Virus record (IMG/VR): IMGVR_UViG_3300022074_000259
Coordinates: 1-29,666 of that record
Origin: a virus
DNA length: 29,666 bases
Direction: 5' to 3' (one strand)
The notes beneath the pieces were generated by a model. The model was not told the DNA's origin. It ran no database searches and saw only the letters and a list, made by a program, of their open reading frames with translations. Positions 2,992-25,071 of this stretch are shown in pieces. The position numbers and the translations under genes are program-made. The first letter of the stretch is position 1. Each line of letters begins with the position of its first letter.

Positions 2992-3246
2992 TCACTTTAA
3001 ATTTAGTGCATCGTTATTTCTGTCAGGTGAAGTTTCAAAAGGCGGTATCCATTTATGAGTTGTATCACCTACAGTTGTTCCAATACCAACTCCCTCTGAA
3101 TTATATATCCAACCTATTCCACCGTCACCAGGATGTTCAACACAATAATGTCCAGTAGGAGGTTGCCACTCATTTGTGTCACCTGACCACATAATAATAT
3201 TTACAACTTCATTTGTTGTGCTGTTAATAAGATTGTACTTTGCCAT
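2992..3246 (-). CDS. small fibre-associated hypothetical protein (84 aa)
   Basis: A small soluble protein rich in Trp, Gly and Pro, with short beta-forming segments (NEVVNIIMWSGD, GWIYNSEGVGIGTT). It begins within the stop codon of the 852-aa fibre (TAATG, 1-nt overlap), so it is translationally coupled to it. Small proteins made directly after a phage fibre are often trimerisation chaperones or tip proteins, and that is my best guess. I cannot assign a family. It ends shortly before the prolyl-hydroxylase-like gene. Confidence 0.7.
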   Translation of the reverse strand: MAKYNLINSTTNEVVNIIMWSGDTNEWQPPTGHYCVEHPGDGGIGWIYNSEGVGIGTTVGDTTHKWIPPFETSPDRNNDALNLK

Positions 3247-5804
3247 TACATTTCTAAAATAAAAACAATTCCCGATGCACCACTACTACCTGGAATATTA
3301 CGTCCATAGGCTCCACTGCCACCTTGTCCATAGTTACGCCACATATATTGTATTCCTCCTGCTCCACCACCGTAACCACCATGACCAGCTTGACCAGATT
3401 GTCCACCATTACCACTAGCAGTCAACTGACAGTTGCTTGAACCACCGCCACCTCCAGGTGAATTATTGCGGTTTCCTCCTCCACCACCATTTCCATAGCA
3501 AGTCTGTCCACTTCCATGAGGATCGACATAAGATTGCCCACCTCCTCCTTCGCTTCCACCACCGCCACCAATTGAGACATTGAAGTGACTACCCATTTGT
3601 GCCGAATCAAACATATTAATTCCTAATCCACCAGATCCACCACCACCAGAAACACCAGCCCATCTTCTTGCTCCAAATTGTGTTCTACCACCACCACCTC
3701 CTCCACCTATCATGAAGCAGAGATACTTTGCGGTATTAGATGATACAGCAACACTATTGGCACTACTAGTCCATACTCTAAAGTTTGCTGCAGAAGTACT
3801 ATTACCAGGAGGACCTGTAGGACCTGGACCACCACTCGAACCACCTGGACCTTGTGGACCTGAAGGACCTTGAGGACCTGAAGGACCTTGAGGACCTGTA
3901 TTACCTTGAGGACCTTGTGCTCCAGTTGCACCTTTTTGACCTTGAGGACCTGTGCCACCTTGAGGACCTGTACCACCTTGAGGACCTGTTCCACCTTGAG
4001 GACCTTGAGGACCTGTTGAACCTGTATTTCCTGTTTGTCCCTTTTGTCCTTTACTACCAGTCGATCCAGTGCCACCTTGAGGTCCTTGAGCACCTTGAGG
4101 ACCTTGAGGACCTGTTGAACCTGTGTTTCCTGTTTGTCCCTTTTGACCTTTATCTCCCGTAGAACCAGTATTACCTGTACCACCCTGCGGACCTTGTGCT
4201 CCAGTTGCACCTTTCTGACCTTGAGGACCTGTAGATCCTGTTACACCCAATTCACCTTTTTGTCCTTTATCACCAGTAGAACCAGTATTACCTGTACCAC
4301 CCTGCGGACCTTGCGGACCTGTAGCTCCCTGAGGTCCTGTTACACCCAATTCACCTTTTTGTCCTTTATCACCAGTAGAACCAGTATTTCCAACGTTACC
4401 TTGAGGTCCTGTAGAACCTTGAGGACCTGTGTTACCAGTGATACCTTTTTGACCTTTCTCTCCCTTCTCTCCTGTATCTCCTTTTTGACCTTTTGGACCT
4501 TGAGCACCTTGAGGACCTTGTGCTCCAGTTGCACCTTTATCTCCTGTAGCACCAGTTACACCTATTTCACCTTTTTGTCCCTTATCACCAGTAGGTCCCA
4601 CCACTGTAGATCCTTCACCTTTTTGTCCTTTCGTTCCAGTCGCATTATTTCCATCCGCACCAGTGTCACCTTTTTGTCCTTTGTTTCCTTTTGCTTCTAC
4701 ATCTCCTATGTTTCCTTTATCTCCTTTCTGTCCTATCTCACCTTTCTGACCCTTTGTTCCTTTCTCACCCTTTTGTCCCTTATCTCCCTTATCTCCTTTT
4801 TGTCCTTTATCACCTACTTCACCTTTTTGTCCTTTTTGACCTGTATCACCTGCGAGTTTGATATGTGCAGTATCACCATTTACAGTAATAGAGTTACCTG
4901 TACCAACAAATCTTAAATTTGTAATACCAGTTCCAACAACTAATCCTTCAGATTGAATACCTACAGCAGAAACAAAGTTAGAACTACTACCTGTTAAACC
5001 CTGTCCACTTCCTCTAAATGTGCCACCAGAAGCATGAAATCCAGAACGACCCGTGACAATACCAATCGCATCTACATTTGCTACATCTTCATATGTTAAT
5101 TTACCAGCAACAGTCATATCACCAGTAATGTTCGCTGATGTAAATTCAGCATTTAAAGGTAGTCTTGCAGCATCAAGTCTTCCTGAAGTAATTAATGATG
5201 CTGGTATTTTTAATCCTGACTTCGCATTTCTACCAGAGTCAAGAACTCGATTACCGCCAATATATAATTCGTTTGCTCTAATACCTTTTCTATTACCTGT
5301 TTTATCTACAACTTCTAAATCACCACTAGAATCTTTTTTTAATTTTGTTTCTCCAAGATTAATTGAATCATCAGAAGGATCAATCGTAATTGAACCCGTA
5401 CCAATTGTCAATATACCCGTTACTCTCGCATCGCCAGTTACAACTAAATCTTCACCAAAAGTCGTGCCACCACCAACATGTAATTTGGCAACTGTCGTGA
5501 TACCTGCTGAAAGATCACTTATACCTACTCCTGCGACAATCGGACCACTGAAGGTTGATGCTGTAACCACACCAGCAAATACCGCTGCACCTGAATTATA
5601 AATTGTCGCACCATGACCTATTGGTGTATCTGCACCAAGAATATTGATATGTGCTACTTCAATACCAATATTATGTACGTTACTTGTTCCAGTTTTAAAA
5701 TTAGATGCAGTCGCAATTCCAGTTAGAGTTATGTCTTCACTAACTATGTGAGACTCCGTGTGAATACCAGGACCTGTAATTTGTGATATATCGTTCAACG
5801 ACAT
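3246..5804 (-). CDS. large collagen-like tail fibre with glycine-rich tip (852 aa)
   Basis: Three parts are visible. Residues 1-318 form a beta-rich stalk with phage-fibre repeats (TASTFSG, VVTGDARVTGILTIG). Residues 319-668 are a long Gly-X-Y collagen run, first Lys-rich (KGQKGDKGDKG) and then Gln/Pro/Thr-rich (GPQGPQGGTG). Residues 699-838 are a glycine-rich tip with several clusters of four or more Gly, followed by SGASGIVFILEM. The tip resembles the polyglycine layout of T-even gp38-type adhesins and glycine-rich fibre ends. The collagen part has breaks at GDVEAKGNKG (367-376) and at GNNATG and GSTVVG. It carries exact direct repeats at the DNA level. A TATAAATA late-promoter box lies 25 nt upstream. 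Probably a receptor-binding fibre. Confidence 0.85.
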   Translation of the reverse strand: MSLNDISQITGPGIHTESHIVSEDITLTGIATASNFKTGTSNVHNIGIEVAHINILGADTPIGHGATIYNSGAAVFAGVVTASTFSGPIVAGVGISDLSAGITTVAKLHVGGGTTFGEDLVVTGDARVTGILTIGTGSITIDPSDDSINLGETKLKKDSSGDLEVVDKTGNRKGIRANELYIGGNRVLDSGRNAKSGLKIPASLITSGRLDAARLPLNAEFTSANITGDMTVAGKLTYEDVANVDAIGIVTGRSGFHASGGTFRGSGQGLTGSSSNFVSAVGIQSEGLVVGTGITNLRFVGTGNSITVNGDTAHIKLAGDTGQKGQKGEVGDKGQKGDKGDKGQKGEKGTKGQKGEIGQKGDKGNIGDVEAKGNKGQKGDTGADGNNATGTKGQKGEGSTVVGPTGDKGQKGEIGVTGATGDKGATGAQGPQGAQGPKGQKGDTGEKGEKGQKGITGNTGPQGSTGPQGNVGNTGSTGDKGQKGELGVTGPQGATGPQGPQGGTGNTGSTGDKGQKGELGVTGSTGPQGQKGATGAQGPQGGTGNTGSTGDKGQKGQTGNTGSTGPQGPQGAQGPQGGTGSTGSKGQKGQTGNTGSTGPQGPQGGTGPQGGTGPQGGTGPQGQKGATGAQGPQGNTGPQGPSGPQGPSGPQGPGGSSGGPGPTGPPGNSTSAANFRVWTSSANSVAVSSNTAKYLCFMIGGGGGGGRTQFGARRWAGVSGGGGSGGLGINMFDSAQMGSHFNVSIGGGGGSEGGGGQSYVDPHGSGQTCYGNGGGGGNRNNSPGGGGGSSNCQLTASGNGGQSGQAGHGGYGGGAGGIQYMWRNYGQGGSGAYGRNIPGSSGASGIVFILEM
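3291..3710 (-). other. glycine-rich fibre tip domain
   Basis: This encodes residues 699-838 of the 852-aa fibre. Repeated Gly runs are separated by short variable segments (RTQFGARRW, SEGG, NRNNSP, SNCQL, YMWRNY). Such an arrangement suits a polyglycine-II bundle that displays loops for receptor contact, as established for the T-even gp38 adhesin of phage S16. The homology here is only compositional. Confidence 0.55.
3992..4124 (-). repeat. 34-bp direct repeat pair at 99-bp spacing
   Basis: Copies at 3992-4025 and 4091-4124 are identical over 34 bp and lie exactly 99 bp apart, which is 33 codons or 11 Gly-X-Y triplets. They lie inside the collagen part of the 852-aa fibre gene. Identity at synonymous positions points to recent duplication rather than protein constraint alone. 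Confidence 0.8.
4159..4313 (-). repeat. 38-bp direct repeat pair at 117-bp spacing
   Basis: Identical 38-bp copies at 4159-4196 and 4276-4313 inside the collagen stalk of the 852-aa fibre. The 117-bp offset equals 39 codons (13 Gly-X-Y triplets), so the reading frame and triplet register are kept. Confidence 0.75.
4236..4388 (-). repeat. 54-bp direct repeat pair at 99-bp spacing
   Basis: Copies at 4236-4289 and 4335-4388 are identical over 54 bp and 99 bp apart. They encode the recurring unit containing [19 protein letters not shown] in the 852-aa fibre. With the 34-bp pair nearby, they show that the stalk has grown by in-frame duplication of a 33-codon unit. Confidence 0.85.
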
Positions 5805-6041: not shown

Positions 6042-6689
6042 TTAATTGGGTTTCATTTCCATAACAAATAAGTAACAATTTCTGACAATAGCATATGAAG
6101 CTGCGTTATTCCTCTTCCATTGAATACTATAAGTTCTAGTTGTACCGCTACCAACATCAATGACTACATCACCAAAACCAGCCCAGCTACTGGAAGTATG
6201 ACTACCACCAGTGCTTCCAACACCAAAACTACCACCAGTTAATTGAATTTGAGCCTGTGCATTATTACCAGAACCAGAAAATATTTCACCACGCCAAACT
6301 ATTAAAATGTGTGAACTACTATCTACGCCACTTAATGTTAATGTAAGTTTAGTATTCCAACCAGTACCAGAATAAACATATTGCTGAGACGTATTTTCTG
6401 CTTTTTTAATTTGTGGTACGGTGGCAGGACCAGAAGGACCTGTTGGACCTTGAGGACCTGTTGAACCTTGAGAACCTTGAGCACCTTGAGATCCTTGAGG
6501 ACCTGTGGGTCCTGTAGGTCCAGTTGCTCCTTGTGCTCCTTGTGATCCTTGAGGACCAGTTGAACCTGGTTCACCCTTAACTGCACCTGTGTTTCTCTTC
6601 CACGATATTCCATTCCAAGTGAATGTTATACCGTTCGCTGAATATGTTTGTCCATTTGAAGGACTATTAGGGAAGTCGAAAGATGCCAT
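6042..6689 (-). CDS. short collagen-like tail fibre (215 aa)
   Basis: The smallest of the collagen-like fibres. Residues 1-36 are the shared [22 protein letters not shown] attachment-like module, about 39-88 a short Gly-X-Y stalk ([16 protein letters not shown]), and about 95-215 a beta-sandwich-like tip ending LFVMEMKPN. The tip resembles in layout the C-terminal domain of the 411-aa fibre (NKILV / SHILIVW core strand, terminal MEM/MELEA), suggesting a common trimeric head fold. It has an X-Pro-Gly triplet (KGEPGSTG), a possible prolyl hydroxylation site. It follows the 232-aa prolyl-hydroxylase-like gene with almost no gap. Confidence 0.82.
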
Positions 6690-6693
6690 AATT

Positions 6694-7392
6694 TTATTTA
6701 TTAATTTGCATGTGATTTCTTAGTAGTGCTAATTCCTCTGCTTGTTTCTCATTCTGTATAACATAAGGTTCTATTATATTATCTCCAATACATCTTTGAT
6801 CATCAACATAATACCAAGTTACTATAACTCTTTTTTTTCCTGATATCACTTTAGTTCCAGAATGAGGAAAGCACCAATTAGAGGGAAAAATGAGACCATA
6901 TCCCGCTGCTGGTTTATATTTTTTATGTACAAATGCAGTATATCCACCCTCAAATCCTTCACTTAAATATATGATAATTGCTATTTTACGATAAAACTCC
7001 TTTGCACCTACCATCGAAGACTCATCTACATGAAAAACAAATTTTTGATCTTTAACATAATCTAATACTTGTATTACTTCTCTATGTGAAGTTGTATCTT
7101 TACCGCCTGGCACTGGATATGAATCAAAAATTACATGCTCATTTATTAAATTATCCCGATATGTGAGCAACACATCATTCATTCTTTCATGAATAAAATT
7201 AGCAACTTCAGAATTATCTTGTAAATATAGACCCGTGCTTGAACGAATTGATTTCTCTATTCTAGAACTTCCTGTCTGTCCATCTGTAAATCCAACAGGA
7301 CATCCACTAAACTCCATCTTATCTATTTTTTCATTAAGATATTTTAATTCATCATCACTGAAGAATTTTAATTCTTGTATCAGTTGGTGCAT
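6694..7392 (-). CDS. 2OG-Fe(II) oxygenase, prolyl-4-hydroxylase-like (232 aa)
   Basis: A P4H-type dioxygenase with iron ligands His121 and Asp123 (FVFHVDESS) and His177 (CFPHSGTK), and the 2OG-anchoring basic cluster SGKKR ending at Arg188. It is a paralogue of the 198-aa enzyme at 2360-2956 over most of its length, with a longer C-terminal tail (about residues 200-232). The pair therefore reflects a duplication, or separate acquisition of two cassette members. It ends 4 nt before the 215-aa collagen-like fibre start and follows the 118-aa protein closely, so it should be co-expressed with fibre genes. Substrate inferred, not shown. Confidence 0.87.
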
Positions 7393-7769: not shown

Positions 7770-8390
7770 TTATTTATTGTACCAAGAAGTATTATTTGAT
7801 GAGTCACCACCACCATAAAATCCTGTAGGTACAAAATTAAATGCAAGTGAGTACCTTATATCATTAGTCGTATTTTCATTTGGTTTATGCATTATGTAAC
7901 TTGGAAAAAATATTAACAAATTTTTTTGTGGTTGTATTGCCCACTCCTGAAAGTTTATTGGTGTATCTTCTTCGTTTTCAATGTAAAATTTTTCTAATTG
8001 TGATAAGGGATTGCGAAGACTTAATGTGCTTGATTCATCTGTATAGTCACTAAAATATAGTAATCCACTGTAGAAACAATTACGATGGTCGTGCACTACA
8101 GTCCTAGTTCCTTTTTTTAATTTTGTTATCCAAGACGTTGATATATCAAAGTCACCACATTTTTTTAGTAACTGTTCATTAAATTCATAAAATTTTTGAA
8201 TAATTAATTTCTTAATATTAGGGTACTTTTCCAACACTCTTTTATCTAAAGATGAAACATTTACATCCAATATGTCAGGATTATTATGCTCAAAAAAATC
8301 AAAATCATCTGGATTTATTTCTGAAGTGTCCTCATCTAAAACCATAGCACCCATGACAGATGCAAACATCATAAGTTCAAATTGTTTCAT
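7770..8390 (-). CDS. putative 2OG-Fe(II) oxygenase, 2OG-FeII_Oxy_5 type (206 aa)
   Basis: The motif VVHDHRNCFYSGLLYFSDY (His100, Asp101, His102), the distal FFPSYIMHKPNE (His168) and DIRYSLAFNF (Arg179) match the family of putative phage and bacterial 2OG-Fe(II) oxygenases that carry H-x-H...SG-YY...FPS-L-H...R-S-AFN. This is a different family from the two prolyl-hydroxylase-like genes nearby. The first 95 residues are a helical, acidic N-terminal extension. It follows the 411-aa fibre gene by 6 nt. It may be one of several enzymes modifying the fibres. Another reading is that it acts on host or metabolic targets, as suggested for some cyanophage oxygenases. Confidence 0.75.
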   Translation of the reverse strand: MKQFELMMFASVMGAMVLDEDTSEINPDDFDFFEHNNPDILDVNVSSLDKRVLEKYPNIKKLIIQKFYEFNEQLLKKCGDFDISTSWITKLKKGTRTVVHDHRNCFYSGLLYFSDYTDESSTLSLRNPLSQLEKFYIENEEDTPINFQEWAIQPQKNLLIFFPSYIMHKPNENTTNDIRYSLAFNFVPTGFYGGGDSSNNTSWYNK

Positions 8391-8396
8391 GAAAAA

Positions 8397-9632
8397 TTAA
8401 GCTTCTAATTCCATTGCAGTAAGTGAGCAGGGTGCTTGTGCAACATTACCCCATCCAGTGGTATAACTTCTTCCTAAAGTTAGATACCAAGAATATGATC
8501 CACCATGATTTGCTCCTTGAACTAACACACGATACTGCACTTGTTGAGTTGTTCCAGGACTATCAAGATATTCGTGTGCTAAAAGACAGATATCCTGATT
8601 ACCACTTGTTTGTGCACCACCTGTGATATAAGTATAAGTGTTATTACTTGGTCCACCTGGTACGCTAGGTATTAATGGTATTGATCCTTGACCTTGATTA
8701 CCTTGAAAAACTGTGCTCCAACCACCACTACCTATTCTTCTTTGTAAATATGATGCAAGTCTACTTCTGTTTGTAGTTGATGTACCAAAACTAGCTCCTG
8801 ATCCACCACAATAAACAAAGTATCTTACAAGTATTTTATTACTATTATCGTTAGGTGTCAAACTTGTTAGTAATCCAACATCTACAGTTGAGTTGTAATA
8901 TCTAAGAGACCAAGCACCTGTTTTTGTATTTGTAGCAACATTTCTTATAGATCCGTTGAATGAAGTTGGACCTGTTGGACCTTGAGAACCTGTAGGACCT
9001 TGGGGTCCTGTTGGACCTTGAGGACCTGTATTTCCTTGAGGTCCTGTAGGACCTGTAGGACCTGTGCCACCACCCGCACCTGCTTCACCTTTTTGACCTT
9101 TATCACCTCCAGTGCCAGATGGACCTTGAGGACCAGTTGGACCTGTGACACTATTCCCTACTTCACCTTTTTGACCCTTAGTGCCTCCTGTACCAGATGG
9201 TCCTGGTGCTCCTGTTGGACCTTGACCACCTGAAGTTCCTATTTCACCTTTTTGTCCCTTAGTGCCTCCTGTTCCTTGAGGACCTTGAGCACCAGTGTTT
9301 CCCTTATCACCTGTTACACCAATTTCACCTTTCTGACCTTTTTGTCCAACTTCACCTTTTTGTCCTTGTCCACCAGTACCACCTAATTCACCTTTCTGAC
9401 CTTTATCACCTTTATCACCAATTTCACCTTTTTGCCCTTTGTCACCAGTTACACCCTGCGGTCCTACTTCTCCTTTTGTTCCTTTATCACCTGTTACACC
9501 AATTTCACCTTTCTGACCTTTTGTTCCCGAACCAGCTGGTAGTTTCCACGCACTACCATCCCACACAAAAGTTACACCATTCTCTGTAAAGGTATCATTA
9601 GTATTTGGACTATTTGGAAAATTAACTGCCAT
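8397..9632 (-). CDS. collagen-like tail fibre (411 aa)
   Basis: Residues 1-35 are the shared module [25 protein letters not shown]. Residues 36-222 are Gly-X-Y repeats, Lys-rich at first ([14 protein letters not shown]) and later GPTGPQG. Residues 225-411 are a beta-rich tip containing [29 protein letters not shown] and a C-terminal LTAMELEA. The YLDSP-TT segment is common in phage fibre heads. The stalk has a Gly-X4-Gly break, GNSVTG (159-164), identical in sequence to one in the 712-aa fibre. An A-rich leader with an AATAAATA box lies just upstream. Probable adhesin; oxygenase genes follow directly. Confidence 0.84.
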
Positions 9633-9644
9633 GATGATATTTAT

Positions 9645-11783
<2,139 letters not shown>

Positions 11784-19033: not shown

Positions 19034-20340
19034 TTTTTACCTGCTGTATCTTTAGCTAAAACAAGTTTCGAGTAAGATCCTGAAGTATCAAATAAATGAG
19101 TCAAACTCTTTATCATATATATTCCACTTATTTCAGAATCTGCCTCCTTTCTCTCTTCAGTATCAATTCTAGGAAAAGTTAATTTAATAGTCTTACCAGC
19201 ATTTAAATTAGTGTTGAGTGGTATAGTAATTTCAATAACATTATTAAATAATTGATTATACCTCATGACTGATTGTGATTGATATCTTGATGGATTAGAA
19301 TTTCTCTCTACATCATTATTCCATCCCATTGTTGTAGTTTCTGAACCTATGGTTCCGATATCCATAATACCAACAAATATTCTACTCGGTTTATCTCCAA
19401 CTTGTTCATCGTTTATAACTGGAAAATCTATAGGTTCAGATCCCAAAAGTGTCATGTCTTCATATTCCTCCTTTGTAAATCTTTTTATTTCTGGTACAAA
19501 AGATAATGGGTTTATATAATATCTGTCAGAACTAAAGACACCTCTCTCTAATTTTGATATTAAATCTTGTGTTCTATTTACGTTTGCCTCTATAACTTTA
19601 AAATTTCCATCATCGCCATTTAAAACTACATCAGGACTAAATTCATATTCCTCTTTATATGGTTTTTGTTCAACTAAGTTTCCTAAACCTCTAAAATTAA
19701 ATCCTTCACTTGTTTCGTAAAATAAAAACCCTGCACCAGAACCTCCAGAATCCGAACCTGATACTGATTTAGATGCTAACCATTCTATAAGAGTGAATGG
19801 TTTTTTAAGATTTCCTATAAAACCATATGGATTAGAGGTTTCATCTGATGTCAATTCCTTATCTGTTTTTAAATAATTTTTACATATATCTTTCACACTA
19901 TCAGTTATAGTTTGAGAAACTGGAAACATTTTACCGACCTGAGTTTCAAGATTAGTTATTGCTTCTCGTTGTACTAAATTAAGAGTTAAAATTTCACTTC
20001 CAGCTGATTTAATAACATTAGTAATAGATGCTACATAAAAAAACATTCCCTTACTATCGAATGTCAATCCTTCATTAGATTCTGAATTACCTGCAATTTT
20101 TATTGTAACTTTCTCACCACCTCTTAATGGTAAACCACTGAATAATGATTGAAACTTTCCATCTTTACCTTCTACAGTGTTTCCTGTATTTGTTATAATT
20201 GCTTTTGCAGTTAAATACGGAGAAAATATATTTTCAAAATAAACAAACGAAACCACACCAAGTCTAATATCTACTTGCTTAGAACCATCTGCACTTAATA
20301 TGGAAAACTTTTCGTATTCTGATTTATCTTTATTTGCCAT
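19030..20340 (-). CDS. 27: gp27-like baseplate hub protein (436 aa)
   Basis: A beta-rich protein with the layout of the trimeric hub ring. Its N-terminal domain reads KQVDIRLGVVSFVYFENIFSPYLTAKAII, with later strands such as GMFFYVASITNVIKSAGSEILTLNLVQREA and a C-terminal IPLNTNLNAGKTIKLTFPR...SGIYMIKSLTHLFDTSGSYSKLVLAKD. The last segment is the typical hub-domain ending. Position directly before the gp5-like gene (ATGA overlap) matches the T4 gp27/gp5 partnership. It is slightly longer than T4 gp27. Assigned by domain pattern and synteny. Confidence 0.72.
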   Translation of the reverse strand: MANKDKSEYEKFSILSADGSKQVDIRLGVVSFVYFENIFSPYLTAKAIITNTGNTVEGKDGKFQSLFSGLPLRGGEKVTIKIAGNSESNEGLTFDSKGMFFYVASITNVIKSAGSEILTLNLVQREAITNLETQVGKMFPVSQTITDSVKDICKNYLKTDKELTSDETSNPYGFIGNLKKPFTLIEWLASKSVSGSDSGGSGAGFLFYETSEGFNFRGLGNLVEQKPYKEEYEFSPDVVLNGDDGNFKVIEANVNRTQDLISKLERGVFSSDRYYINPLSFVPEIKRFTKEEYEDMTLLGSEPIDFPVINDEQVGDKPSRIFVGIMDIGTIGSETTTMGWNNDVERNSNPSRYQSQSVMRYNQLFNNVIEITIPLNTNLNAGKTIKLTFPRIDTEERKEADSEISGIYMIKSLTHLFDTSGSYSKLVLAKDTAGKK

Positions 20341-21716
20341 TATGTATTTAATATGATTGTTTGAATTACTTTCATTGTTTCACTATCATTCATATTAGCA
20401 AAATCTAAATCTAATTTAGAATTACTACCACCTATTACTGCACCTTGATTAGAAGCTACTTGCACTGGTTTTTCAATTATAGTTATCGTATTCCTCTTCT
20501 TCCTATTATTTAATCGTACTTTAGATGTAGGTTTTTTAAGAGCAATTACATCTTTGCTATCTATATTTTTAAAAATTTTTTCAGTTGCAGATTCTAATTC
20601 CTTCTTAAAATTATCATCTGATACTGTCTCTAAATTATCACTTAAATCAAACTTAGTTGTAGAGGCAATTTTTTGATTTTCAGTATCTTTTTCTGCCTTT
20701 GTACCAAACATATTTGATATGTAATTGTTTATCTTGGTTCTTATACCCTCTACATTTTCTTGATTTTGATTCTGATCTTCTTCCTCTTGATTTTTTACAT
20801 CAATGGTATCACCCTTAGATTTTTTCTTGGTTTCATCTAATTTTGCTAATAATACATCACCCATCTTATCTTTTCCTTCAACACTTTGAGAGTCATTCAA
20901 TCCTAATTTTACTTCAGATGGTTCTACTCCCTCATTTTGATTTCCAGATTCCGTTTCCTTATCGGTGCTCTTTTTATTTTCAGTTTTTTTAGTATCTTCA
21001 GAAGGAGTATCTAAATTTTGATTATTGTTATTATTTTGAACATCAGTTAAAGAAATGGCATCTTCATTAAAACTTGTAAGTCCAATGTTTTTTGGGTTTG
21101 CTGCATCGTTTGCACTTGATACCAAATCACGTTGCATCATCACTAAACTATTCTCAGTTTTTTCAATTTCATTTTCAGCATCGTTTTTAGCTTTTAAGAA
21201 ATCAAAAGAAGGTAAAGCATCAATAGCACCCCTTATCGCTCTTTTCATCCCAACTAATATATTAGTTACACCCTCTACAAAACCAGACAAAACACCTACC
21301 AATTGACGAATTCTCGTTATAACTTTCCCTATAGCATCAAGAATTTTAGGTAGTCTTGTAACAAACCAACCTATTAAGATAATTCCAAAGAAATCTAGTA
21401 TTCTTCCTAGAAATCCTTTCGTGCTCGTTCTAGATATTGTTCCTTGTTTTTTAACAACACCCGTAACTGATGCTGCCTCTAATTCATCCTCTCTCTCTTT
21501 ACGTCTTACATTTTCTCTTCTTCTACTAAAAAATTCGTTATCACTTCTTACTAATCTTCTTTTAAAAAGATTTGATTCTCTTGTTTTTTTAACTAATTCT
21601 GTTGCTGTCTTTTTTGCCTTTGTAATACCACTAGTAAAATTTGAAACAGTATCTCTCATCGATTTGATACTTATCGATGATTTTAATAGTGAGTTTCTTC
21701 TACTTCTTATACTCAT
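20340..21716 (-). CDS. tape-measure-like / hub protein 2 (458 aa)
   Basis: The N-terminal 95 residues are very basic and coiled-coil-like. A hydrophobic stretch, GFLGRILDFFGIILIGWFVTRL (about 101-122), follows, then more hydrophobic helices to 150. A long Asn/Gln/Glu/Lys-rich, probably unstructured middle (about 215-330) comes next, and a C-terminal segment with KLDLDFANMNDSETMKV. It shares the LxRLxxFFxIxxxGW element and the order of segments with the preceding 522-aa protein, so the two look paralogous. It overlaps both neighbours by 1-4 nt. It may act with its partner in tail-length determination or as an inner hub component (T4 gp29-like). The assignment is by architecture. Confidence 0.55.
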   Translation of the reverse strand: MSIRSRRNSLLKSSISIKSMRDTVSNFTSGITKAKKTATELVKKTRESNLFKRRLVRSDNEFFSRRRENVRRKEREDELEAASVTGVVKKQGTISRTSTKGFLGRILDFFGIILIGWFVTRLPKILDAIGKVITRIRQLVGVLSGFVEGVTNILVGMKRAIRGAIDALPSFDFLKAKNDAENEIEKTENSLVMMQRDLVSSANDAANPKNIGLTSFNEDAISLTDVQNNNNNQNLDTPSEDTKKTENKKSTDKETESGNQNEGVEPSEVKLGLNDSQSVEGKDKMGDVLLAKLDETKKKSKGDTIDVKNQEEEDQNQNQENVEGIRTKINNYISNMFGTKAEKDTENQKIASTTKFDLSDNLETVSDDNFKKELESATEKIFKNIDSKDVIALKKPTSKVRLNNRKKRNTITIIEKPVQVASNQGAVIGGSNSKLDLDFANMNDSETMKVIQTIILNT

Positions 21717-23281
21717 ACTGCCACCACATTAAATAAAGATTCTGTAAGTGCAATATAATTATTAGTTGGATCTTCACTAGGTATTGCAGGTGTACTATTT
21801 GCACTACTTCCCGAATTATTAGCAACCACACCAGATTCATTGCTGCCCATGTTAGTATTCAATGGTATTGTCACAATATTTGCTGATTCATCTAGACTTG
21901 ATATTTGAGCAGCAACGTTCATTTCTTTCTTATTATTAATTGGGGTTACATTTTCACTTAAATCAAGAGTTACAGGTGAAATATTTTTTTCACCATTCGT
22001 AGTCGTGATAGTCTCATTATTTTGGTTTGAATTTGTTTCTACGCTATCATTGTTTGAATTATTAGCACCAGTCAATTCATCTGCTACTTTACCACCAAAC
22101 ATTCTTGTTAAAAAAGGTAAAGTAAGTAAAGTTAACGTGCCAGCAACACTAGAAAAAGGTTCTGGAAATATTGTTAACGCTATTGCAGCACCAGTTATAC
22201 CACCGACTACTTCACCACTAACTCCAGCACCAGCTTGAACATTAGTCTGACCTTGATCTTTTCTGTCCATAAAATCAAAAATACCGAGTATACTCTCAAT
22301 CGCTATATCAACTGGAACTAAGTAATTAAATGCATTTCTTAATCCTTCTTTAAATCCCTTTTTCATGAATGTATCATTACCTAAAATTTTATTCATCACA
22401 GTTCTATTCTTAGGAATTGGAATGTCGTCCGCTGTTTTTGCAATATCCTTACCAATTCCAAGTTTTTTAGCTAAAAAAGGTCCTACTATCGGTATACCTA
22501 TTAAAGCCGAGCCTAATAATCCTAGTAAACCACCACCAGGTAAATTTCTGAAAAAAGTAATTACTTGATTTTTAAAATTCAAGACATTGTTTTTTAAATA
22601 TCTTAATATCGCTCTAATTGGTGTTTTTAAGATTCGATTGAATGTAATTTTAAAGGCAGCTGCACCCAATCTACCAACTAAACCTAAGATTCTACGAATA
22701 CCTATTGTAAATGTTAGTCCTATTCCACCAAGTATTAATAAGTCTTTTATTAATTTATCTTTAAATTCATTCAACGCATCAATATTATCTCCAGAAGTTA
22801 ATCTAATAAATGTCAATGCCTTATCTGTCAACCATCCTCCTGCAAGTATCATAAAGAAATTACCTAATCTTGCTAGTAATCCCTGTGCTTTTCTTGCAAT
22901 TCTACGAACAGGCATCAAAAGTGCGTTTTGTATTTTTCTTTCTAACTCACTTTCTTTACCTTCCCTTAAAGCCTGCTCTGCTAAAATTCTATCTCTTTTT
23001 CTCTTTTCGTTTTCTCTTTGTCTTTCTAAAGTATCACTTAATACTAAATTATCCTTAATAATATTAAGAGAATTATTAAGTGAACTGACCTGTACACTAA
23101 CAGTCCTTAAATTTCTTGATAAATTATTTAATGCTAACGAATTTTGCTGTAGTAAACTTGTTGTTTGAGGATCTGGTTGTGCTGCAGCAGGACGAGCACC
23201 AAAAATACTAGAAGATACACTTCTTCTAATACCTCTGATTCCACTTGCTATTGGCGAGACTAATCCCTGTTCCTCATCCAT
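21713..23281 (-). CDS. putative tape measure protein, gp29-like (522 aa)
   Basis: Directly downstream of the tail-assembly chaperone pair, where tape measure genes sit in most tailed phages. An N-terminal coiled coil (about 40-120: NNLSRNLRTVSVQVSSLNNSLNII, then a charged Arg/Glu helix) is followed by hydrophobic segments (LLARLGNFFMILAGGWL at 135-151; a GGGLLGLLGSALIGIPIVGPFLA region; GGITGAAIALTIFPEPF). The C-terminus is Asn/Ser-rich. Such alternating helical and membrane-active segments are typical of tape measures. The start overlaps the 59-aa ORF by 8 nt. The match to T4 gp29 is by position and composition rather than direct sequence recognition. Confidence 0.6.
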   Translation of the reverse strand: MDEEQGLVSPIASGIRGIRRSVSSSIFGARPAAAQPDPQTTSLLQQNSLALNNLSRNLRTVSVQVSSLNNSLNIIKDNLVLSDTLERQRENEKRKRDRILAEQALREGKESELERKIQNALLMPVRRIARKAQGLLARLGNFFMILAGGWLTDKALTFIRLTSGDNIDALNEFKDKLIKDLLILGGIGLTFTIGIRRILGLVGRLGAAAFKITFNRILKTPIRAILRYLKNNVLNFKNQVITFFRNLPGGGLLGLLGSALIGIPIVGPFLAKKLGIGKDIAKTADDIPIPKNRTVMNKILGNDTFMKKGFKEGLRNAFNYLVPVDIAIESILGIFDFMDRKDQGQTNVQAGAGVSGEVVGGITGAAIALTIFPEPFSSVAGTLTLLTLPFLTRMFGGKVADELTGANNSNNDSVETNSNQNNETITTTNGEKNISPVTLDLSENVTPINNKKEMNVAAQISSLDESANIVTIPLNTNMGSNESGVVANNSGSSANSTPAIPSEDPTNNYIALTESLFNVVAV

Positions 23282-23453
23282 TCTTTTCTTGTTGAGCTTT
23301 TAAATTTTCTTCTTCAATATACTGTTGTAAGAGTGAAATGTAAATTTCTCTCTCCCAAGGTATCATATTTTCAAGTTCTGTCAAACTATATTTATGATGC
23401 TGCATTAAGGAAAAATTCAATTTGTAGTATGACACAAGATCTTCATGTGCCAT
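23274..23453 (-). CDS. 59-aa tail-assembly chaperone extension ORF (-1 frame of gp26)
   Basis: A short ORF reading MAHEDLVSYYKLNFSL...SLTELENMIPWEREIYISLLQQYIEEE. The LTELENMIPWERE-Y--LL motif is like the second (frameshifted) domain of tail-assembly chaperones, where a conserved Pro-Trp-Glu/Asp-Arg precedes a helix. Its ATG begins 2 nt after the gp26 stop and lies in the -1 frame, behind a slippery heptamer and hairpin. It may therefore be made as a C-terminal extension of gp26 (about 300 aa fusion), by reinitiation at its own ATG, or both. It overlaps the tape-measure-like gene by 8 nt. Confidence 0.8.
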   Translation of the reverse strand: MAHEDLVSYYKLNFSLMQHHKYSLTELENMIPWEREIYISLLQQYIEEENLKAQQEKNG

Positions 23454-23468
23454 ACTTATGCGAAAAAA
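23428..23468 (-). promoter_or_regulatory. probable programmed -1 ribosomal frameshift site
   Basis: On the minus strand, the gp26 reading frame ends AAT TTT TTC GCA TAA, giving the canonical slippery heptamer T TTT TTC (23462-23468). A 7-nt spacer (GCATAAG) follows. Then comes a stem-loop: left arm TATGGCACA (23446-23454), loop of 9 nt, right arm TGTGTCATA (23428-23436), 9 bp with one G-U pair. Slipping by -1 gives ...F-F-R-I-S-M-A-H-E and enters the 59-aa ORF. The hairpin also covers the ATG of that ORF. Confidence 0.7.
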
Positions 23469-24175
23469 TTCTGCAGCCCCTCTAATACAATTTCACTTTC
23501 GACCTTGGTATTTGGATTGGTTACTTTGACTGCATGAGATAATTTTGGCATTGTTTCAAAGAATTTTTCAACTTCTTTGAATTGTGAGGAATTTAATTGA
23601 TCAACGAATTCAGTCAATTCTTTTTTTGTACACTCCTGATGAGACCAAGACTCTTCATCTGAGTACACTTGATCTATACATGATGCAATCAAATCAAATG
23701 TATCATCTACATTCATATTTGAATCAAAGTTAAAATTACTCTTTATAAATTCATCTAAAGATGGATACTTCATTCTTAATGTATAGATTTCATCAAGTTT
23801 AATGTCAGTCGAATGTTGATCATCAGTTTTAACTTTAATACTATCGATGTTAATAGACATTGGAACTTGTGTTTTCTTGTCATCAGGACAAGTAACCATA
23901 ACTTCAATTTGTTCACCTACAGACTTTCCACGAATGTTTAGAAACAAATATTCAATATCAAAGGTAGAAAGTCTTTCAACTTTAATTCCTTTAGATAGAA
24001 TACATTTTGATATAACATCTTTAACTGCTCTTGCAATTTGTTTAGGATCTTGAGATTCCATTGCTAAAATAAGAATCTTTTCTTCCTTCACTAAAAATGG
24101 TCTGTATTTAATTTTTCTGTTTGACGAAGGTAACACTAACTCGTAAGTCGGTGTTGAAATGGTTGGTAAAGGCAT
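23456..24175 (-). CDS. 26: gp26-like baseplate hub / tail assembly chaperone (239 aa)
   Basis: The sequence YELVLPSSNRKIKYRPFLVKEEKILILAMES near the N-terminus is the hallmark of the T4 gp26 / T4_baseplate family. The middle contains TFDIEYLFLNIRGKSVGE and VMVTCPDDKK, also typical. In T4, gp26 is needed for hub assembly; homologous proteins in other phages act as tape-measure chaperones. It lies downstream of the gp54-like gene with a TATAAATA box 25 nt before the ATG. The 3' end carries a slippery heptamer and a hairpin that could extend the protein into the 59-aa -1 ORF, like lambda G/GT. The tape-measure-like gene follows. Confidence 0.85.
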   Translation of the reverse strand: MPLPTISTPTYELVLPSSNRKIKYRPFLVKEEKILILAMESQDPKQIARAVKDVISKCILSKGIKVERLSTFDIEYLFLNIRGKSVGEQIEVMVTCPDDKKTQVPMSINIDSIKVKTDDQHSTDIKLDEIYTLRMKYPSLDEFIKSNFNFDSNMNVDDTFDLIASCIDQVYSDEESWSHQECTKKELTEFVDQLNSSQFKEVEKFFETMPKLSHAVKVTNPNTKVESEIVLEGLQNFFA

Positions 24176-24225: not shown

Positions 24226-25071
24226 TTATCTCTGATACTGTGATATTACTTGATTTGTAAGAAACTTTTCTGCATTTCCTATATCAGGATTATCTGTAAT
24301 ATTAATATTATTACCAAATCTTTGTGCTAATGTGCCATCGTTCAATAATGCTAAACTATTTTGTGTTGTGATTTGATTTAAAAATGTATCATCATTATAA
24401 CTATATGCTCCAGTACCCGAAGAACCAGACCCACTCTTATTATTTAAATCTAAACCAAGTGCTCTTGCAAGTGAAGATGATTCACCACAAATATAACGAT
24501 CATAACTAAATGATGCTGTTGCTTTTAAAACTGTAGAACTTTGATAAGAAACTTTTGTTGAATTGAGTGACATTGGAAATAAACCTACAAATCTATACTC
24601 TAAGAATTGAAAATGATTTTTTTCAAATTTTACAATTCTAGTATCATTTGACTTATAATCGTCAGGATACTGCATTCTAAAATAATATGCGTCTCCTGAT
24701 GGATTCTTTGGAGAAGCACCAGAAATATATTCCATCCAATGTTCTAAGAATCGAAGTGATTTATACTCATTATCTACATAAAATTCAAAATTTATTTGAG
24801 TAAAGTTTCGAGTATGTGCAAATCTCTCAACTACACCTTGATAATCACCAGCAGTATTTTTAGTAGCCATCGCACTACCAGGTAAAGATGCATCATAACA
24901 TAATAGACCTACATCCTCCGCTATAAAACGATCATTTATTCCTTTTCTTCTCAAATGAGTTTTTAAATCACTTGGAGGTAATGCAAATTTAACAAGGTAT
25001 TTTGATGTCTGAGCTACATTCTGTAACTTAGGCATTATATCTGATATTCTACTCGGTCTTGGTGCTGGCAC
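24226..25071 (-). CDS. 54: gp54-like baseplate tail tube initiator (281 aa)
   Basis: A tail-tube-fold protein. QINFEFYVDNEYKSLRFLEHWMEYISG and RFVGLFPMSLNSTKVSYQSSTVLKATASFSYDRY correspond to the strand-helix and final strand pattern of T4 gp54/gp19. In T4, gp54 sits on the gp48 cap and starts tube polymerisation. The start is GTG at 25071, which keeps the N-terminal MPAPRPSRISDIMPKLQ; an ATG at residue 13 (25035) is the alternative. The C-terminal 80 residues are Ser/Gly/Asn-rich with a helix. It is the first leftward gene after the divergent promoter region, opposite gp4. Confidence 0.7.
   Translation of the reverse strand: MPAPRPSRISDIMPKLQNVAQTSKYLVKFALPPSDLKTHLRRKGINDRFIAEDVGLLCYDASLPGSAMATKNTAGDYQGVVERFAHTRNFTQINFEFYVDNEYKSLRFLEHWMEYISGASPKNPSGDAYYFRMQYPDDYKSNDTRIVKFEKNHFQFLEYRFVGLFPMSLNSTKVSYQSSTVLKATASFSYDRYICGESSSLARALGLDLNNKSGSGSSGTGAYSYNDDTFLNQITTQNSLALLNDGTLAQRFGNNINITDNPDIGNAEKFLTNQVISQYQR

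Follow-up and report, generated by a model that had tools for sequence, protein, structure and literature searches.

Predicted -1 programmed frameshifting at gp26 of a marine T4-like phage and its relation to T4 gp26 and gp51

A single gene of a marine T4-like phage very probably gives rise to two tail-assembly chaperones through -1 programmed frameshifting at the heptamer T TTT TTC, as judged from comparative sequence analysis. The abundant zero-frame product would be gp26 (239 aa; TAC-N, G-like), and the minority product would be a 300-aa fusion with a gp51 C-terminal domain (TAC-NC, GT-like). The site and its frame, their conservation, the covariation and Shine-Dalgarno (SD)-like element that accompany them, and the homology to gp26 and gp51 of T4 were established by sequence comparison. 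The window, the whole stretch of DNA that was analysed, comprises the 29,666 nt of IMGVR_UViG_3300022074_000259; all genes described below lie on its minus strand.

The gp26 junction and its neighbourhood

The gp26 gene (23456..24175, minus strand) matches PF12322 T4_baseplate over residues 9-239, a full-length profile match (E 1.3e-75), and the baseplate hub family phrog_150 over its whole length (E 3e-80). Its minus-strand sequence ends in ...CTG CAG AAT TTT TTC GCA TAA, with the heptamer T TTT TTC (23462..23468) in frame with gp26 at 23468-23462 and a single codon ahead of the stop. The 59-aa ORF that follows (23274..23453, minus strand), called gp51 in the annotation of relatives, lies exactly in the -1 frame relative to gp26, and its ATG stands 2 nt past the TAA. 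The first-pass annotation had placed the heptamer and the short ORF in this way, and both placements were confirmed on the minus strand; the fusion that it had put at roughly 300 aa has a computed length of exactly 300 aa, namely 238 up to the heptamer plus 62. From the slip site the -1 frame runs on as an extension of 62 codons without an interrupting stop (23274..23462, minus strand, its own stop being 23274-23276). The peptide across the slip site in the predicted fusion is NFFRISMAHEDL, whereas a 59-aa product from the ATG would begin MAHEDL; in P-SSM2, which also carries the heptamer, the spanning peptide of the predicted fusion is ...LQSFFRISMAHEDLESYYK. In PHROG comparisons the short ORF belongs with gp51: it hits the C-terminal half of phrog_634, known as the 'hub assembly catalyst' family (E 9.5e-28), a link that the first-pass annotation had not made. 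It also hits the last columns of phrog_150, so that some database members have both parts in one chain.

Upstream of gp26 lies a tail tube protein gene (24226..25071, minus strand; phrog_45, E 2e-37; PF23849 Phage_TTP_2, E 2e-15). Downstream, a 522-aa ORF (21713..23281, minus strand) shares 8 bp with the end of the extension. Since this ORF had no Pfam or PHROG match, its identity as a candidate tape measure is positional; in relatives the extension is followed by an ORF of 600-860 aa, in some cases with weak tape-measure matches. The presumed tape measure region (20340-23281, minus strand) is divided into two ORFs of 522 and 458 aa. P-SSM2 likewise has two (529 and 516 aa), and S-PM2 has one ORF of ~1167 aa after gp51. 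Elsewhere in the window, collagen-like (Gly-X-Y) ORFs of the tail-fibre type occupy 555-1667, 3246-5804, 6042-6689, 8397-9632 and 9645-11783 (minus strand), with PF01391 confirmed for 3246-5804 and 9645-11783. Among them lie three 2OG-Fe(II) oxygenase genes (2360-2956, 6694-7392 and 7770-8390, minus strand; PF13640 twice, PF13759 once), and together they form a possible prolyl-hydroxylation module for phage collagen.

Chaperones of the lambda G/GT type are made in a set product ratio, bind the tape measure and the tube protein, and are absent from the virion. If lambda and P2 are a guide, the short form would serve here as the coat of the tape measure, and the minority long form would bring in subunits of the tail tube or the hub. 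We infer ribosome slippage itself, a product ratio and this chaperone role, the last because of gene position (tail tube before, large ORF after), the family link to T4 gp26/gp51 and the G/GT layout.

Conservation of the predicted slip site and its flanking elements

We assembled 253 split loci with an extension from close IMG/VR relatives, wider scans and named phages, and reduced them to 131 non-redundant loci, in which the final 100 aa of gp26 together with the extension are <90% identical. Among 79 close IMG/VR relatives there was no change in the heptamer, and every readable short ORF lay in the -1 frame. T TTT TTN, read as T TTT TTC, TTT or TTG, stood before the gp26 stop in 253/253 split loci, followed by a -1 extension of 55-73 aa. 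These loci include the phages S-PM2, S-CRM01, Melnitz-2, Sinorhizobium phiN3 and phiM9, Stenotrophomonas BUCT608, Citrobacter Ci1, Aeromonas Aeh1, Acidovorax ACP17 and Vibrio D525 (VH7D was read directly). The run has six T in the window and reaches eight in a few relatives. Six loci (L198, L224, L243, L244, L246 and L258) have their zero-frame stop 8 codons further downstream, with heptamer and extension in the usual place.

An in-frame T TTT TT occurred at only 17 of 30,546 other gp26 codon positions (0.06%), compared with 253/253 at the slip site, and the heptamer is therefore not a product of chance. Within the split loci the first Phe codon was always TTT (68% elsewhere in gp26) and the codon ahead of it (Asn, Ser, Asp or Ala) always ended in T (31-78% elsewhere), counts that treat related sequences as independent, with formal probabilities overstated as a result. 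A stronger argument is that the pattern occurs in several phage families. Phe-Phe itself is a constraint on the protein: T4 gp26 retains FF as TTC TTT.

Relatives that keep both ORFs and lack the heptamer had been named in the first-pass annotation as evidence against frameshifting. There was none among the split loci, but three very distant phages (~23-27% identity to the window gp26) do lack a canonical heptamer: Vibrio D503 (L087) has A CTT TTC, and the Ackermannviridae Kevin (L272) and VP-1 (L275) have G GTT TTC and C GTT TTT. All three retain the -1 extension; in Kevin there is no ATG near its start. They may use a related slip site or a different slip mechanism, the former because chaperone genes of Vandenendeviridae and Andersonviridae have been suggested to carry a GTTTTT slippery motif (PMC12846349).

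Start codons of the short ORF are far less constant. Among the 131 non-redundant loci, ATG is present in 90, GTG or TTG is the only start in 18, and 23 have none of the three. Conserved residues run directly from the heptamer (RIALSH...), ahead of the ATG. The P-HM2 annotation cuts gp51 to ~30 aa and those of S-SSM4 and Aeh1 have no gene over the extension (L276, L274 and L088), artefacts that trace back to the absence of a start codon. Similarly, gp51 is entered as a free short protein, omitted or truncated, as in these three phages, in hundreds of records of cyanophages and marine phages; it should be recorded there as a ribosomal-slippage product.

An SD-like GAGGGG (23477..23482, minus strand) ends 8 nt before the heptamer and is a probable upstream stimulator. 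In relatives a purine-rich GAGGG ends ~7-8 nt ahead of the heptamer. The duplex of this element with the anti-SD averaged -6.6 kcal/mol over the 131 non-redundant loci and reached -4 kcal/mol or lower in 89% of them, as against 7% at random gp26 positions; the element was present in 83% of the loci without an ATG. At 23 nt from the ATG of the window it lies too far away to serve the short ORF, and the short-ORF ATGs showed no SD of their own (mean -0.74 vs -0.75 at random positions). Frameshifting of the dnaX type likewise has an SD-like element 5' of its slip site. The GAGGGG would pair with the 16S rRNA of the elongating ribosome, probably aiding slippage.

Downstream, a putative stimulatory hairpin with an 11-bp stem and a 9-nt loop (23426..23456, minus strand) starts 5 nt after the heptamer and probably aids slippage as well. 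Its minimum free energy is -15.4 kcal/mol (z -3.77), and 0/200 shuffles were as stable. The hairpin and loop had been recognised in the first-pass annotation as a 9-bp stem at 23428-23454 behind a 7-nt spacer. Those 9 bp are the inner part of the longer stem, which shortens the spacer to 5 nt; the remark that the hairpin covers the short-ORF ATG was accurate, the ATG bases being buried in the stem. Across 65 sequences of the window's clade 92.7% of hairpin cells are paired, and one pair covaries (U-A in 25, G-C in 19, A-U in 16). It accounts for 35 double changes, a value reached by 0/500 shuffles and far above slid controls. In the S-PM2 clade another hairpin takes its place, of 12 bp, and here a C-G pair has become U-A. 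Beyond the window's own clade, loci have a substitute hairpin, a weak one or none; there is only one covarying pair per clade, and no Rfam family matched the junction region. Thus the heptamer and the SD-like element are constant and the hairpin turns over. The predicted conservation of heptamer and frame was borne out among relatives, and that of the stem, with compensatory changes, within clades. A fixed heptamer with clade-wise turnover of the stimulator offers a useful natural series for the study of frameshift tuning.

T4 gp26 and gp51 and the competing readings

T4 gp26 and gp51 both match phrog_150, gp51 up to its very end, and they are paralogues of each other (blastp down to 3e-8; hhalign 99.1%). 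In hhalign, T4 gp51 covered the entire fusion, slip site included (99.7%; 97.0% for the C-terminal part alone), whereas T4 gp26 ends at the slip site and scored 0.4% against the extension. T4 gp26 is homologous to the short form, and T4 gp51 to the fusion over its full length. T4 differs in having two separate genes without the heptamer, of which gp51 is encoded in frame; the 3' end of T4 gp26 reads TTC TTT and the heptamer is gone. AlphaFold models of the window gp26 and a T4-type gp51 have the same order of elements, with three additional C-terminal helices in gp51, and the gp51 model matched gp26-type models in BFVD. One T4-like contig (L104) has a gp51 homologue broken by a stop at codon 121. 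In a tree of gp26 and gp51 proteins, T26, T51 and all others each made up one side of a branch; long branches meet in this tree and its root is unknown, and it does not date the duplication.

A 2016 review named T4 as the exception among long-tailed phages, whose chaperones otherwise involve a frameshift (PMC5009743). The sequences fit a derived state of T4, because the slip site is retained in relatives, among them Aeh1 and KVP40-type phages from the family of T4 itself. T4 and its close kin would make the same two products from the paralogous genes gp26 (short) and gp51 (long), and T4 gp51, traditionally described as a hub assembly 'catalyst' of obscure action, would correspond to the frameshift product. 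We consider it likely that a dnaX-like two-part stimulator, with a near-universal 5' SD-like element and a 3' hairpin replaced independently by clade, is ancestral, and that the Tevenvirinae exchanged it for two paralogous genes, with the FF codons going from TTT TTC to TTC TTT.

The same observations bear on whether gp51 could instead be a separate 59-aa protein, started at the ATG 2 nt past the stop through reinitiation or translational coupling, with the heptamer incidental. Such a protein would agree with the ATG in the window and in 90/131 relatives, with TAATG-type overlaps in several named phages and with the annotation of gp51 as its own gene in most records. It is nevertheless highly improbable when 23/131 loci lack any start codon, the ATG has no SD and lies inside the hairpin, conserved residues stand ahead of it, and T4 gp51 is a full-length protein with both a gp26-like and a C-terminal part. 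As the main mode, reinitiation was ruled out by start-codon loss, SD position and the T4 gp51 homology. An arrangement in which frameshifting makes the fusion and ATG-bearing members also make free 59-aa gp51 draws on the same retention of ATG in 90/131 relatives. We regard it as unlikely, given the missing SD and the covering hairpin; in the window's clade, moreover, the ATG bases lie within the stem, which could alone retain them. Probably the 59-aa ORF is not expressed on its own.

Slippage of RNA polymerase on the run of six T would insert an additional U into the mRNA, so that translation enters the -1 frame. The outcome at the protein level would be the same, and the run does reach T8 in a few relatives. 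Six T followed by C is a short run, however, the Rhizobium-type sites are T TTT TTG, and a conserved hairpin behind a 5-nt spacer and an upstream SD are stimulators of ribosomes that are irrelevant to a polymerase; this explanation is scarcely credible. Frameshifting by the ribosome at T TTT TTC is the reading that we retain.

Published work and other tail chaperones

The first-pass annotation had called such frameshifting undescribed for T4-like phages, a statement that is wrong or, at the least, out of date. Vladimirov, Gautam and Davidson 2022 (Virology 566:9-15), available to us through the citing papers PMC10885494 and PMC12846349, has the tail assembly chaperones of T4-like phages as its subject, and the idea of an unpublished link to T4 was dropped when that study was found through them. 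As cited in PMC10885494, some T4-like phages have a short gene and a longer fusion gene instead of frameshifting; as cited in PMC12846349, TAC-N genes of T4-like phages contain poly-T slippery sequences. Both the two-gene form of T4 and slippery sites in other T4-like phages thus seem to have been reported already. In the accessible literature, which represents Vladimirov et al. through these citing papers, we found no mention of a two-part stimulator, start-codon loss or the breadth covered here. The SD-plus-hairpin stimulators, the start-codon loss and the survey may add detail to the published picture.

Frameshifted tail chaperones are a known kind, with lambda G/GT and P2 E/E' as examples. 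Comparison of gp26 with lambda G and P2 E by hhalign with single sequences gave no significant similarity, a Phage_TAC_7 match was weak (best E 0.13), and the extension had no Pfam match above noise to GpE or other chaperone families. A scan of viral contigs with P2 E returned near-identical copies only and no useful profile. In a Foldseek search of the PDB for the short form, the HK97 chaperone 2ob9 had the highest probability (0.47), yet at E 1.2.

Lambda G/GT differs from the window in its heptamer (G GGA AAG) and its extension of ~144 aa, without detectable sequence homology. The gp143/gp144 pair of Bacillus phage 0305phi8-36 is a published two-gene G/GT without frameshift (PMC2147016), the form found in T4 in an unrelated phage lineage. 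P2 E/E', an annotated -1 frameshift, differs in that gpE has 91 aa and its stop lies 6 codons past the heptamer, compared with 1 in the window. P2 has the same layout, with a contractile tail, a T TTT TTG heptamer and a 57-aa extension, and its tape measure gene T overlaps E+E' by 8 bp, as the 522-aa ORF of the window does with the gp26 extension.
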